Below are positions 13,245-48,909 of a DNA stretch of 64,000 bases, piece by piece. The notes under the pieces were generated by a model. The model was not told where the DNA came from. It searched no databases and was given only the letters and a program-made list of their open reading frames with translations. The DNA lies in NCBI RefSeq assembly GCF_007828835.1, contig NZ_VIVL01000001.1, forward strand, positions 434,001 to 498,000, written 5' to 3'. How positions within the stretch are numbered: position 1 is the stretch's first letter; each line of letters opens with the position of its first letter. Position numbers and translations under genes: made by a program. This DNA comes from Variovorax beijingensis. Lineage in GTDB: Bacteria > Pseudomonadota > Gammaproteobacteria > Burkholderiales > Burkholderiaceae_C.

Positions 13245-13338
13245 GGCTCGCCCCCAGGCTTCGTGCACTTCGTGCCGCTTCGCCCACCCCTACCGGGGGC
13301 AACACCAGCGGCCCGGCAAAGCCGGTTCCGCGGTGTTT
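13245..13338 (+). repeat. Structured dispersed repeat, full copy A
   Basis: This 94-base element lies between dprA and smg, in the opposite orientation to both genes. It matches copy B at 45025-45120 over its whole length with about ten substitutions and one short gap. Three hairpins can be drawn: GTGCAC/GTGCCGC near its start, CCCC/GGGG in the middle, and a long terminal stem. In that stem AACACC-a-GCGG pairs with CCGC-GGTGTT around an inner CCGGC-AAA-GCCGG. The matching position in copy B reads GAGG/CCTC, so the stem is kept by a paired change. Confidence 0.85.
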
Positions 13339-13360
13339 CACGAAAAAGCGGGCCCGGGCG

Positions 13361-44202: not shown

Positions 44203-45024
44203 ATGACTTTCCTCGACAAGCTGGCCAATGCACAGCAAAAAAACGGTTCGTTGCTCTGCGTGGGGCTCGATCCGGAGCCAGCCAAGTTCCCGGGGCAGCT
44301 CAAGGGCGACGCCAGCCGCATCTTTGACTTCTGCGCGCGCATCGTCGACGCGACGGCCGGCCTGGTCATCGCCTTCAAGCCGCAGATCGCCTATTTCGCG
44401 GCCCACCGCGCCGAAGCCCAGCTCGAACAACTGATGGAGCACATGCGCCGCAACGCGCCCGACGTGCCCGTGATCCTGGACGCCAAGCGCGGCGACATCG
44501 GCTCCACGGCCGAGCAGTACGCCATCGAGGCCTTCGAACGCTACGGCGCCGACGCCGTGACCCTGTCGCCCTTCATGGGCTTCGACTCGGTGGCGCCCTA
44601 CCTCAAGCACCAGGGCAAGGGCGCCTTCCTGCTCTGCCGCACCAGCAATCCCGGCGGCTCCGACCTGCAGGGCCAGCGACTGGCGGACATCGAGGGCCAG
44701 CCCTTTCTCTACGAGCACGTCGCCAAGCTGGCGCAGGGCCCGTGGAACCTCAACGGACAGCTCGGCCTCGTGGTGGGTGCGACCTATCCGGCGGAGATCG
44801 AGCGCGTGCGCGAACTCGCGCCGACGGTGCCGCTGCTGATTCCGGGCGTCGGCGCCCAGGGCGGCGATGCGGTGGCCACGGTGCGCGCCGGCTGGCGCCC
44901 CGACGCGCCGATCATCGTGAACTCGTCGCGCGCCATCATCTACGCCTCCTCCGGCGACGACTTTGCCGAGGCGGCCCAAAAGGCCGCGCGCACCACGCGC
45001 GACGCACTAGAGGCCGCGAAATAA
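44203..45024 (+). CDS. pyrF: Orotidine 5'-phosphate decarboxylase, type 2
   Basis: This 273-residue enzyme makes UMP from OMP. The catalytic D-x-K-x-x-D array is seen in [17 protein letters not shown]. Other features are [14 protein letters not shown] and the C-terminal [16 protein letters not shown]. The length fits the longer type 2 form. It follows the glycosylase-fold gene by 33 bases. Its stop codon is directly followed by repeat copy B. Confidence 0.96.
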
Positions 45025-45120
45025 GGCTCGCCCCCAGGCTCCGCGCACTTCGTGTCGCTTCTCCAACCCCCTGCCGGGGGCAACACCGGAGGCCCGGCAA
45101 AGCCGGTTCCTCGGTGTTCC
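45025..45120 (+). repeat. Structured dispersed repeat, full copy B
   Basis: This 96-base element starts immediately after the pyrF stop codon, between pyrF and the convergent XRE gene. It matches copy A (13245-13338). Hairpins: GCGCAC/GTGTCGC near its start, CCCCC/GGGGG in the middle and a long 3' stem. In that stem AACACC-g-GAGG pairs with CCTC-GGTGTT around CCGGC-AAA-GCCGG. The A-T pair here replaces the C-G pair of copy A. Confidence 0.85.
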
Positions 45121-45142
45121 TGGGGTGGGCGGCTGCCTGGCC

Positions 45143-45877
45143 TCAAGCTCTGCGCAGGCGTGTGAAGGCTTCGAACTCCCAGTTGCGCATGCCCAGCAGC
45201 AGCGTGTAGCCCTCGCGGTCCTTGGCCGAGAGCTTCTGGTCGGTCTGGTGCTGCTGCGCGAAGTCCTGCGCCACGCGCTGCAGGCGTTCCAGGAAGGCCG
45301 GCGCGAGCGAGCGGCTGATCGACCCGTGCACCAGCAGCAGTCCTTCGGCCGGGCCATCGAAGCCGCCGCGGTAGTAGTCGAGCACCACGTTCTCGCGGAA
45401 GAACTCCATCACCGGGCCGTGCGGCCGCCAGCGGAAGGTCTTGGCCAGCTTCAGCCGGTAGCGGTTCAGCGGGCGCAGTTCGATGATGCCGATGCGGTCC
45501 AGCTGCGCCAGACAGCCGATGCACTCGGCCTCGCTGATCCGGTACGAAGCCACGATCTGCTCCAGCGTCCACTGGCTCAGCACGCTGATGGCCACCAGCA
45601 GCAGCTTCTTGTCCTTGACCACCGCCTTTTCCTGCTCCTGGGTCAGCTCCTTCAGCAGCGGCTGGGCGTCGGCCACGCGGCGCGCCAACTCCGCGAAGTC
45701 GATCTTGAGCGCACGGCAGATCGCATCGACGCGCGACAGCGGCATGTCGCTCTTGGCCAGCATGCGCTTCACGCTGGATTCGGCCATGTCGAGCGAGCGC
45801 GCCAGGTCGGCGTAGGTCATGCGGGCGCTCTTGAGTTCGTTCTTGAGGGCTTGGACGAGGTCGACGGTGGTGCTCAT
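45143..45877 (-). CDS. XRE-family helix-turn-helix regulator with a large C-terminal domain
   Basis: The 244-residue protein has an N-terminal helix-turn-helix near residues 18-60 (MTYADLARSLDMAESSVKRM, then LSRVDAICRALKIDFAELAR). The remainder (residues about 75-244) is a helical domain with a possible second winged-helix region (LSQWTLEQIVASYRISEAEC) that I cannot assign. It is divergent from the CREST-type gene. A 17-base palindrome lies 23 bases before its start and recurs before the envelope cassette. Confidence 0.85.
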   Translation of the reverse strand: MSTTVDLVQALKNELKSARMTYADLARSLDMAESSVKRMLAKSDMPLSRVDAICRALKIDFAELARRVADAQPLLKELTQEQEKAVVKDKKLLLVAISVLSQWTLEQIVASYRISEAECIGCLAQLDRIGIIELRPLNRYRLKLAKTFRWRPHGPVMEFFRENVVLDYYRGGFDGPAEGLLLVHGSISRSLAPAFLERLQRVAQDFAQQHQTDQKLSAKDREGYTLLLGMRNWEFEAFTRLRRA

Positions 45878-46015: not shown

Positions 46016-46876
46016 ATGCCTTTGCCCACCCTCAGCCGCCGCGAGCGCGGACTGCTCTTCACCTTCGCGCTGCTCGCGCTGGTGGCCCTGTTCGGACCCG
46101 CATTGCCGGCGGCCGAGGTGGCCATTGCCTCGGTGTTCGCCGACGACCGCAGCTGGCACGGCCTGCCCAACGCCATGGACGTGCTGAGCAACCTGCCCTT
46201 CATGCTGATCGGCTTCTGGGGCCTGTACCGGCTCAACCGGATCGACCGCGCCCACCAGGAGGCGCTGGCGCAGTTCCCGCTGGCGCCGCCGGCCAACGAT
46301 CCGCCGGACAACACGCTCGACTGCGCCTGGCTTTTCTTTGCCGGGCTGGTCGCCACTGCTGCGGGATCGGCCTTCTTCCACCTGATGCCCGACGGCGCCC
46401 GGCTCGCGGCCGACCGCGCCGGCATGGCGGTGGCGTTCGCGGGGCTGATCGGCATCGCGGTCTGCGAGCGCGTGAGCCAGCGCGCCGGCTGGCCGGCCGC
46501 CTGGTTTGTGCTGATGGCCGGGCTGCTGTCGGCCGAGGTGTTCCAGGAAAGCGGCAACGTGCTGCCCTGGGCCATCGTGCAGTTCGGCGGCATGGCGCTG
46601 GTGCTCACGCTCGCGATCGCCACGCCGATGCGCGGCGCGGTCGGGCTCAAGCTGGGCTGGGTGATCTGCTTCTATGCCCTGGCCAAGGCATTCGAGCTGG
46701 CCGACCACGCGATCTACGAGGCGACGCAGCAGGTGGTTTCGGGCCACACCCTCAAGCACCTGACCGCATCGCTGGCGGGCCTGCCGGTGCTGGCGGCGCT
46801 GCGCAAGCTCGACATGAACTGGCGCGCGACCCTGCTGCGGCACAATCCCGACGCAGCCGCCGCCGTGACGGCATGA
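46016..46876 (+). CDS. CREST-superfamily membrane hydrolase (alkaline-ceramidase-like)
   Basis: The 286-residue protein has about seven hydrophobic helices. It carries the hallmarks of the CREST superfamily: a serine in MDVLSNLPFMLIG, the H and D residues in SAFFHLMPDGARLAADRAGMA, and an H-x3-H in SGHTLKHLTASLAG in the last helices. Relatives include alkaline ceramidases and PAQR receptors, which hydrolyse amide bonds of lipids. The substrate is unknown. The next gene encodes a lysophospholipid-repair fusion, which supports a lipid role. Confidence 0.78.
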   Translation: MPLPTLSRRERGLLFTFALLALVALFGPALPAAEVAIASVFADDRSWHGLPNAMDVLSNLPFMLIGFWGLYRLNRIDRAHQEALAQFPLAPPANDPPDNTLDCAWLFFAGLVATAAGSAFFHLMPDGARLAADRAGMAVAFAGLIGIAVCERVSQRAGWPAAWFVLMAGLLSAEVFQESGNVLPWAIVQFGGMALVLTLAIATPMRGAVGLKLGWVICFYALAKAFELADHAIYEATQQVVSGHTLKHLTASLAGLPVLAALRKLDMNWRATLLRHNPDAAAAVTA

Positions 46877-46880
46877 CATA

Positions 46881-46922
46881 GGCCCGCCCCCAGTCTTCGC
46901 GCACTGCGTGTCGCTGCGCCAG
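46881..46922 (+). repeat. Structured dispersed repeat, 5' half only (copy C)
   Basis: Forty-two bases starting four bases after the stop of the CREST-type gene match the first part of copy B at about 35 of 42 positions. The first hairpin (GCGCAC/GTGTCGC) is kept, with a changed loop. The middle and 3' hairpins are absent and the sequence runs straight into the ribosome-binding site of the next gene. Confidence 0.75.
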
Positions 46923-46947
46923 TAGATAACAAGAGGAGATGCTCCGA

Positions 46948-48909
46948 ATGACAACCCCCGCCGCTGCTGCCACTGCCGCCACCGCGCCCCACGAGGCGAA
47001 CGCCCACGCGAACCAGTTCGCGCTTCTCGGGCAGCGGCGCTTCGCGCCCTTCTTCTGGACCCAGTTCGCGGGCGCGGCCAACGACAACCTCTTCAAGTTC
47101 GCCTTCACCGTCATGGTGACCTACCAGCTCCAGCTGAGCTGGATGCCGCCGGCCATGGCGGGCCTGGCCATCGGCGCGCTGTTCATCCTGCCGTTTTTGC
47201 TGTTCTCCGCCACGGCGGGGCAGCTCACCGACAAGTTCGACAAGACGAAGATGATCCGCTTCGTCAAGAACCTCGAGATCGCGATCATGCTGCTCGCGGC
47301 CTGGGGCTTCGTGCGCGCCGATGCGGTGGTGCTGCTGGGCTGCGTGTTCCTCATGGGCCTGCATTCCACGCTGTTCGGGCCGGTCAAGTTCGCCTACCTG
47401 CCGCAGGTGCTCGACGCGCGCGAGCTCACGGGCGGCAACGGCATGGTCGAGATGGGCACCTTCGTCGCCATCCTGCTCGGGCAGGTGGCGGGCGGGCTGC
47501 TGGTGGCGCTGCCGCAGGTCGGCCACACGACGGTGGCGGTGGCCTGCGTGCTGCTGGCACTGGTGGGGCGCGGCGTGGCCCAGGCCATTCCGCGGGCGCC
47601 GGCCACCGACCCGGGGCTGATGATCAACTGGAACCCGTTCAGCGAGACCTGGCGCAACCTCAAGCTCGCGCACGGCAACATCGTGGTGTTCCGCTCGCTC
47701 CTGGGCATCTCGTGGATGTGGTTCTTCGGCGCGGTGTTCCTGAGCCAGTTCCCCAGCTTCGCGAAGGAAGTGCTGCACGGCGACGAGCAGGTGGCGTCTC
47801 TGCTGCTGGTGGTGTTCTCGGTGGGCATCGGCGTGGGCTCGCTGCTGTGCGAGACGCTGAGCCGCCGGCAGGTCGAGATCGGCCTGGTGCCGCTGGGCGC
47901 GATCGGCATGAGCGTGTTCGCCATCGACCTGTACTTTGCATCGCGCGCGCTGCCTCCGGTAGCGGTCATGGGGCTGGGCGCCTTCATGGGCCAGGCCGCG
48001 CACTGGCGTGTGATGGCCGACTTGGCGCTGCTGTCGCTCTTCGCGGGGCTCTACAGCGTGCCGATGTACGCGCTGATCCAGCTGCGCAGCCAGCCCACGC
48101 ACCGCGCACGCATCATCGCAGCCAACAACATCCTCAACGCGCTGTTCATGATCGGCAGCTCGGTCATCGCGGGTGCGCTGCTCGGCGCCGGCTTCACCAT
48201 TCCGCAGATCTTCCTGTTCACCGGCATTGCCAACGCCGTGGTGGCGTTCTACATCTTCATGCTGGTGCCGGAATACCTGCTGCGCTTCATCGCGTGGATG
48301 CTGTCGCACTTCGTCTACCGCTTCGAGATCAAGGGCGACGAGCACATTCCCACCGAGGGCGCCGCGGTGCTGGTGTGCAACCACGTGAGCTTCATCGACG
48401 CCATACTGCTGATGGCCGCGAGCCCGCGTCCGATCCGCTTCATCATGGACCACCGCATCTTCAAGGTGCCGGTGCTCGGCTGGCTGTTCAGGCTGGCCAA
48501 GGCGATTCCGATCGCGCCGCAAAAGGAAGACCCGGCGGCCTACGAAGCGGCGTTCGCGAAGGCGCTGGGCGTGCTGCGCGAGGGCGACCTGCTGGCCATC
48601 TTTCCCGAGGGCGCCATCACGCGGGACGGCCAGCTGCAGCCCTTCAAGGGCGGCGTGATGAAGATCATCGAAAGCGCGCGCGCCGAAGGCATCGAGCCGC
48701 CGGTGATCCCGATGGCGCTGACCAATCTCTGGGGCTCGTACTTCAGCCGCATCGAGCTGCGCGGCGGCCAGAACGTGGCCATGGCCAAGCCCTTCCGCCG
48801 CGGCTTCTTTAGCCGCGTGGGGCTCAACGTCGGCCATGCCGTGCCGCCGGCCGAGGTGCGGCCCGAGGCGCTGCAGCAGCGCGTGAGCGGATTGCTGCTG
48901 GCCGCGTAA
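46948..48909 (+). CDS. LplT-Aas fusion: lysophospholipid transporter and acyltransferase
   Basis: In this 653-residue membrane protein the N-terminal 430 residues form an MFS domain of the LplT type (FFWTQFAGAANDNLFKFAF, then ATAGQLTDKFDKTKMIR). The C-terminal part is a PlsC-type acyltransferase with the HX4D motif in NHVSFIDA and the FPEGAITRDG motif. Together they would flip lysophospholipids inward and re-acylate them. The AMP-ligase domain of E. coli Aas is absent. The start at 46948 is chosen because GAGGAG at 46933 is well placed for it; an ATG at 46939 overlaps that site. Confidence 0.9.
   Translation: MTTPAAAATAATAPHEANAHANQFALLGQRRFAPFFWTQFAGAANDNLFKFAFTVMVTYQLQLSWMPPAMAGLAIGALFILPFLLFSATAGQLTDKFDKTKMIRFVKNLEIAIMLLAAWGFVRADAVVLLGCVFLMGLHSTLFGPVKFAYLPQVLDARELTGGNGMVEMGTFVAILLGQVAGGLLVALPQVGHTTVAVACVLLALVGRGVAQAIPRAPATDPGLMINWNPFSETWRNLKLAHGNIVVFRSLLGISWMWFFGAVFLSQFPSFAKEVLHGDEQVASLLLVVFSVGIGVGSLLCETLSRRQVEIGLVPLGAIGMSVFAIDLYFASRALPPVAVMGLGAFMGQAAHWRVMADLALLSLFAGLYSVPMYALIQLRSQPTHRARIIAANNILNALFMIGSSVIAGALLGAGFTIPQIFLFTGIANAVVAFYIFMLVPEYLLRFIAWMLSHFVYRFEIKGDEHIPTEGAAVLVCNHVSFIDAILLMAASPRPIRFIMDHRIFKVPVLGWLFRLAKAIPIAPQKEDPAAYEAAFAKALGVLREGDLLAIFPEGAITRDGQLQPFKGGVMKIIESARAEGIEPPVIPMALTNLWGSYFSRIELRGGQNVAMAKPFRRGFFSRVGLNVGHAVPPAEVRPEALQQRVSGLLLAA

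Follow-up and report, generated by a model that had tools for sequence, protein, structure and literature searches.

A short palindromic repeat of Variovorax and its relatives that lies in one orientation at stop codons

A three-hairpin repeat of about 85–105 bp occurs in at least 89 copies in the genome of Variovorax beijingensis, and most of these copies share one orientation, with their 5′ end at a same-strand stop codon. This oriented anchoring, which was overlooked in the first-pass annotation of the region, is unusually strict: 71 of 82 copies had their 5′ end within 8 nt of a same-strand stop codon when second units of tandem arrays were dropped. The explanation that we favor, with a probability of roughly 0.6, is that the repeat is a family of short non-autonomous mobile palindromic elements, present in Variovorax and its relatives, with habits like those of MIRUs and REPs.

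The window, that is, the whole 64,000-nucleotide stretch analyzed, comprises positions 434001–498000 of contig C1 of a 6.94-Mb draft genome; the coordinates below are those of the window. The top-ranking relatives of its pyrF were from Variovorax. The first-pass annotation had reported two whole-length copies, and both were present, with 89% identity over 94 nt. Copy B (45025–45120, + strand) is a full element whose 5′ end is directly behind the TAA stop codon of pyrF (45022–45024); the HTH gene convergent to pyrF and copy B ends at 45143. In copy B, hairpin 1 (GCGCAC-TTC-GTG.CGC; 45043–45058, + strand) was located by single-sequence folding and its pairing is kept across alignments, and hairpin 2 (CCCCC...GGGGG; 45067–45080, + strand) was located by folding and the 43-copy alignment. 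Hairpin 3 (45082–45118, + strand; arms 45082–45098 and 45102–45118) is the covarying one and contains GAGG/CCTC. Copy A (13245–13340, + strand), also a full element, lies between dprA and smg (DUF494) and is inverted relative to both; its hairpin 3, at 13301–13337 on the + strand (arms 13301–13317 and 13321–13337), contains GCGG/CCGC. With no same-strand stop codon at its 5′ end, copy A is an exception to the anchoring. Beyond the two copies first reported, the window contains a truncated third one, a 5′ half copy (46881–46920, + strand) located 4 nt past the TGA stop codon (46874–46876) of the gene at 46016–46876.

Copies were collected with a covariance model built from 43 aligned copies, a search of the genome and its relatives that the first-pass annotation had proposed. 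The 89 copies are a lower bound, the best 150 of 9866 first-look candidates having been scored; a BLAST search of the same genome with copy B gave at least 42 matches, with 40 of 97 candidates scored. The family is thus far larger than the two copies that the first-pass annotation had reported. Model matches were found in all 41 genomes of the genus (per-genome counts are minimum values where 97 was reached) and, with strict filters and the best 20 candidates per genome, in 9 of 200 genomes of the order, including the V. beijingensis genome. Named Polaromonas loci (L152, L155, L171, and L191) carried the element as well. A search of a phage collection gave no match to the element, and a plasmid collection gave eight records (five from Variovorax, two from Comamonadaceae, and one from Diaphorobacter), all rated non-mobilizable. 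Subfamilies differed chiefly in hairpin 1 and the 5′ leader, and the tandem units present in the V. beijingensis genome were direct. The statement that no named family was known for the repeat still stands: no Rfam family reached its gathering threshold for the element in the window, where the single hit was unrelated; copy B gave one sub-threshold Rfam match (dauA, 15.5 of 45 bits, E = 4.9); and no account of the repeat family was found in open-licence PubMed Central papers, a collection in which most subscription journals fall outside coverage.

Three side observations belong here. A match to RF02835 (Bcj11, Burkholderia RNA 11) at 47654–47775 on the + strand, scoring 99.9 bits, is inside the MFS/acyltransferase coding sequence at 46948–48906, so RF02835 may be a family of conserved coding sequence instead of a separate RNA. 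In one genome of another genus (G138; loci L205–L264), a shorter related element was clustered, with two to three or more copies in a single gap, and often lay a long way past a stop codon. In another (G233; loci L207, L212, L217, L222, and L232), the same 5′ module (CACCCCCAGGCT...CCCCCTCCAGGGGGC) was joined to a different third hairpin (GCAACAT...ATGTTGC), and these elements were likewise at stop codons. Judged from the G233 variants, the modules of the element seem to be exchangeable.

Pairing of the hairpins was examined in three sets of copies. In the 43-copy alignment, which was made from sequence alone, 99.2% of 1106 pair cells paired; two-sided changes were present in 22 cells at five pairs, and the covariation score was reached by no shuffle. 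One of five measures, the number of further pair types (11, compared with a shuffled mean of 11.7), was not above the shuffles. The other two sets were fitted to the model and lean towards it. One consisted of 32 copies outside model building, in which hairpins 2 and 3 alone were scored: 97.8% of 635 cells paired and 21 were two-sided. The other, made up of 50 distinct copies found in Variovorax genomes other than that of V. beijingensis, had 98.0% pairing among 1277 cells, with two-sided changes in 64 cells at 17 pairs. These results bear out both the paired GCGG/CCGC to GAGG/CCTC change between copies A and B and the conservation of the two further hairpins, and they show the stems to be kept far more often than broken. 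The folds of single sequences were less striking: copy A was unremarkable (z = −1.5 on either strand) and copy B moderate (z = −2.6 and −3.1).

The kind of exchange seen in hairpin 3 was also informative. When the three sets were pooled, its 1868 cells comprised 1826 Watson–Crick pairs, 11 G-U, 12 A-C, and 19 other mismatches. An RNA under selection is expected to accept G-U more readily than A-C. Because G-U was not the commoner of the two, the pattern gives no pointer to the sense RNA as the selected thing. It would fit a DNA hairpin, arm-to-arm copying, or the spread of ready-made variants.

For the analysis of position, gene ends were taken from a custom codon-usage caller trained on the window. 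Three of the 89 copies were set aside because their 5′ side had no called gene or because a called gene overlapped the copy. Among the remaining 86, 71 were anchored, and four of the 15 exceptions were second tandem units; with these excluded, 11 of 82 copies, copy A among them, were unanchored. In anchored copies the 5′ end of the element fell from −7 to +6 nt relative to the end of the same-strand stop codon. Random position and orientation within the same gaps, repeated 5000 times, anchored 17.7 of the 86 copies on average and never more than 32. Orientation was equally biased: between co-directional genes, 54 copies were sense and 7 antisense, and of the 16 convergent pairs that lay outside arrays, 15 had the 5′ side nearer its stop codon and one was equal. 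The best-scoring loci from five more genera of the order were then scored in the same way. Anchoring was found again in four of these five (G211, 27 of 30; G089, 12 of 15; G178, 5 of 6; and G233, 5 of 7); in the fifth, G138, 6 of 31 were anchored. The 25 misses in G138 included 22 that were 13–281 nt behind a same-strand stop codon, many in clusters of copies, and three with no same-strand gene on that side.

Three simple causes of this placement were rejected. A preference for TGA as target predicts at best 0.346 of copies at stop codons, compared with the 71 of 82 observed, and other motif preferences (TG, TGAA, and similar) predict 11–20%, so that the whole range of motifs spans 11–35%. Shielding of the ribosome-binding site of the next gene was ruled out as the source of the asymmetry, because convergent pairs, which have no such site to guard, show the same asymmetry. 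Lastly, the anchoring could be an artefact of truncation if elements landed inside genes and supplied a stop codon; at eight sites, the upstream protein ended at the same codon as in element-free relatives or one codon away, except that at the CNNM/CorC site some of these relatives were longer by 9–10 codons and others had the same end codon.

Presence and absence of the element were seen at eight orthologous sites and at the dprA site. The pyrF site was compared in 17 named Variovorax loci that share the convergent neighbor: four had a sense element at the pyrF stop codon, two an inverted element, and 11 none. The two inverted elements were at the stop codon of the opposite gene. In this gap, L124 and L130 carry insertions of opposite orientation, each at the stop codon of its co-oriented gene. 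At 46876–46948, where the window has its half copy, the same 17 loci comprised three with a full element (L123, L126, and L136), one with a remnant, and 13 without. The dprA-smg site had a model match in 2 of 30 loci (the V. beijingensis genome and G038); G025 had an internally deleted copy and G032 a fragment, some others may hold remnants, and G020, the closest relative, was empty. By eye, the carboxyl transferase and glnE sites were each full in 2 of 24 loci (V. beijingensis and G032). The flgG-flgH and flgH-flgI junctions had full, part-deleted, and empty alleles side by side. The remnants at several sites kept the 5′ end and the stop codon (the half copy in the window; G031 and G004, G011 and G018, and G020), and others had no kept 5′ end (G025 at dprA; C7:57074).

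Junctions between element and flanking DNA were read from these alleles. At two sites, element-free relatives had TGA where the filled ones had a TAG built from the first bases of the element (GTC TGA compared with ATC TAG GCTCTCC, and ACT TGA compared with ACT TAG CTCGCC). On the other side, GAA occurred within 4–8 nt past hairpin 3 in 48 of 86 copies; at control offsets the count was 2–9 of 89. The empty dprA allele, read along the strand of the element, was CCGT-GGAAAAG and the filled ones CCGT-element-GAAGAAG or similar. On the simplest reading of these junctions, from which we infer the exact ends of the element, the joint would lie at T-G(G)A. Copies A and B had no terminal inverted repeat in common; copy B alone had a 7-nt pair (45032–45038 and 45119–45125). 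No clear target duplication was present at the sites read, where one of up to about 3 nt (TGA) might escape notice. Of the classes named in the first-pass annotation, a folded, dispersed element of REP or MITE size agrees with the stems kept and the at least 89 copies, whereas a strict MITE does not agree with these ends.

The element also altered reading frames. In five genomes (G007, G009, G010, G016, and G032; loci L339, L344, L346, L349, and L350), the unit behind flgH was open in frame, and an ATG next to the stop codon began a 402-aa frame that continued as what we take, from synteny, to be FlgI; FlgG and FlgH were named by Pfam. This is a candidate frame, in which FlgI would have a repeat-derived N-terminus ahead of its signal peptide. 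The frame through the repeat was open in the V. beijingensis genome too, where a later ATG is available. Coding potential in general was weak: all three sense frames were open in 57 of 79 copies, compared with 58% in shuffles.

Comparison with known repeats was made on these grounds. MIRUs, which were set against the Variovorax repeat by their description, are likewise short, folded, mobile-looking units that lie at gene junctions in operons, do little harm, and form tandem direct units. PMC12548453 describes their insertion at start codons as nearly harmless and gives them an internal ORF coupled at −4 nt. The Variovorax copies at stop/start overlaps (flgG-flgH and the glnE site) and the frame open through the repeat at flgI in five genomes are similar. 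The Variovorax repeat differs in that it is tied to the stop codon of the gene before it, including that of convergent pairs (18 of 82) with no start codon nearby, and in that its open sense frames are barely above those of shuffles. Enterobacterial REPs and GTAG REPs are also high-copy intergenic palindromes, a share of which is near stop codons. According to PMC12306157, 446 of 4072 E. coli REPs by one tool, and 260 of 496 in an earlier study, lie no more than 15 nt from a stop codon; according to PMC3733652, a REP/RAYT system is marked by a palindrome that carries an invariant GTAG or CGTC tag, and GTAG REPs often provide a TAG stop codon. The Variovorax repeat has three hairpins and about 100 bp, compared with 20–40 bp for REPs, has neither a constant tetranucleotide tag nor an adjoining transposase gene, and is anchored in one orientation. 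Bacterial MITEs and the ERIC, Correia, and RUP elements resemble it in length (about 100–160 bp), in being non-autonomous and folded, and in having empty and filled sites. Most such elements, according to PMC2229807, have terminal inverted repeats, TA ends, target duplications, and A+T-richness, none of which was seen in the Variovorax repeat. In PMC2817692, Variovorax is named solely as a taxon that received DNA by transfer. The repeat thus shares habits with REPs and MIRUs and fails the tested marks of REPs, MITEs, and intrinsic terminators; we therefore regard it as a variant within a known kind, with unusually strict placement.

In the explanation that we favor, an enzyme recognizing the hairpins would move the element, probably as single-stranded DNA, and would make the joint at a T-G step, in many cases within a TGA stop codon or immediately past it. 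The first bases of the element would then rebuild the stop codon (T+AG, T+AA, or T+GA), so the upstream protein would hardly be changed, and stop codons and stop/start junctions would be safe landing places. The parity of G-U and A-C in hairpin 3 is what would be expected of a hairpin whose role is played as DNA. Because even a TGA preference predicts only 35% at stop codons, safe landing alone is insufficient to account for the placement. No autonomous relative with the same ends was seen by eye among partial matches, and no mobilizing gene was found; with copy A as the BLAST query, no match fell within 1.5 kb of the only Y1 transposase gene in the genome.

A possible but unlikely alternative is that the repeat is a domesticated mRNA element, whose fold behind the stop codon would stall terminating ribosomes or shield them and would govern mRNA decay or the ratio of neighboring cistrons, and whose position and orientation would be held by selection for this function. 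Its sense orientation and its range of −7 to +6 nt agree with the acting distance reported for E. coli REPs, which lower translation when less than 16 nt from a stop codon (PMC12306157, citing Liang et al. 2015). In addition, genes for solute-binding proteins seem to be over-represented upstream (at least 14 of 71 anchored copies compared with 3 of 58 other window genes, p = 0.018), recalling malE-REP-malF of E. coli; this is only a lead, because the idea came from the same data and the counts are minimum values. Against this alternative, hairpin 3 does not vary like an RNA under selection, part-deleted copies are numerous, and the element is patchy among close relatives: at two sites G020 (95–96% identity in the neighboring gene) is empty and the more distant G032 (88–93%) is filled, which also means that loss or recombination must act besides gain.

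A rather more speculative form of the mobile-element explanation, which we think quite unlikely, is that translation termination directs the insertion event; stop codons would then be the true target and not merely sites at which insertions persist. A putative transposition system would act on DNA laid bare at the point of ribosome release from the mRNA, such as the displaced strand of an R-loop just past a stop codon, and would join the hairpin element to it in the sense orientation.

It is doubtful that the repeat is a REP that owes its movement to the genome's only Y1/RAYT transposase (PF01797; L042, 1465–2157). RAYT genes are usually present in single copy. One PF01797 gene is present in 38 of the 41 genomes of the genus, and the element is hairpin DNA with a constant loop; nevertheless, no copy lies beside the gene in the V. 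beijingensis genome, the constant GTAG or CGTC tag before the hairpin was absent by eye in 89 copies, and pairs in alternating orientation were not seen. The three genus genomes with no PF01797 match carry 69, 54, and 22 copies; completeness is below 90% for two of them, but G035, with 22 copies, is 99% complete.

A traveling transcription terminator, or a transcript end as the first-pass annotation had suggested, is highly improbable: the position behind stop codons, the very stable hairpin, and a C-rich first half that might load Rho would suit it, but none of 89 copies had TTTT in the 20 nt at or after the hairpin, which with the copies inside flgG-flgH-flgI rejects the intrinsic type, no terminator-like site was found around copy B, and 54 of 82 copies, including two in flgG-flgH-flgI, lie between co-directional genes.

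Palindromic repeats near stop codons may land there or may merely be kept there. The tight one-way anchoring, its occurrence in several genera, and the many empty and filled alleles in culturable bacteria make targeting and selection directly testable against each other. Because the element rewrites stop codons and start regions, it also matters for the annotation of genes in this group.
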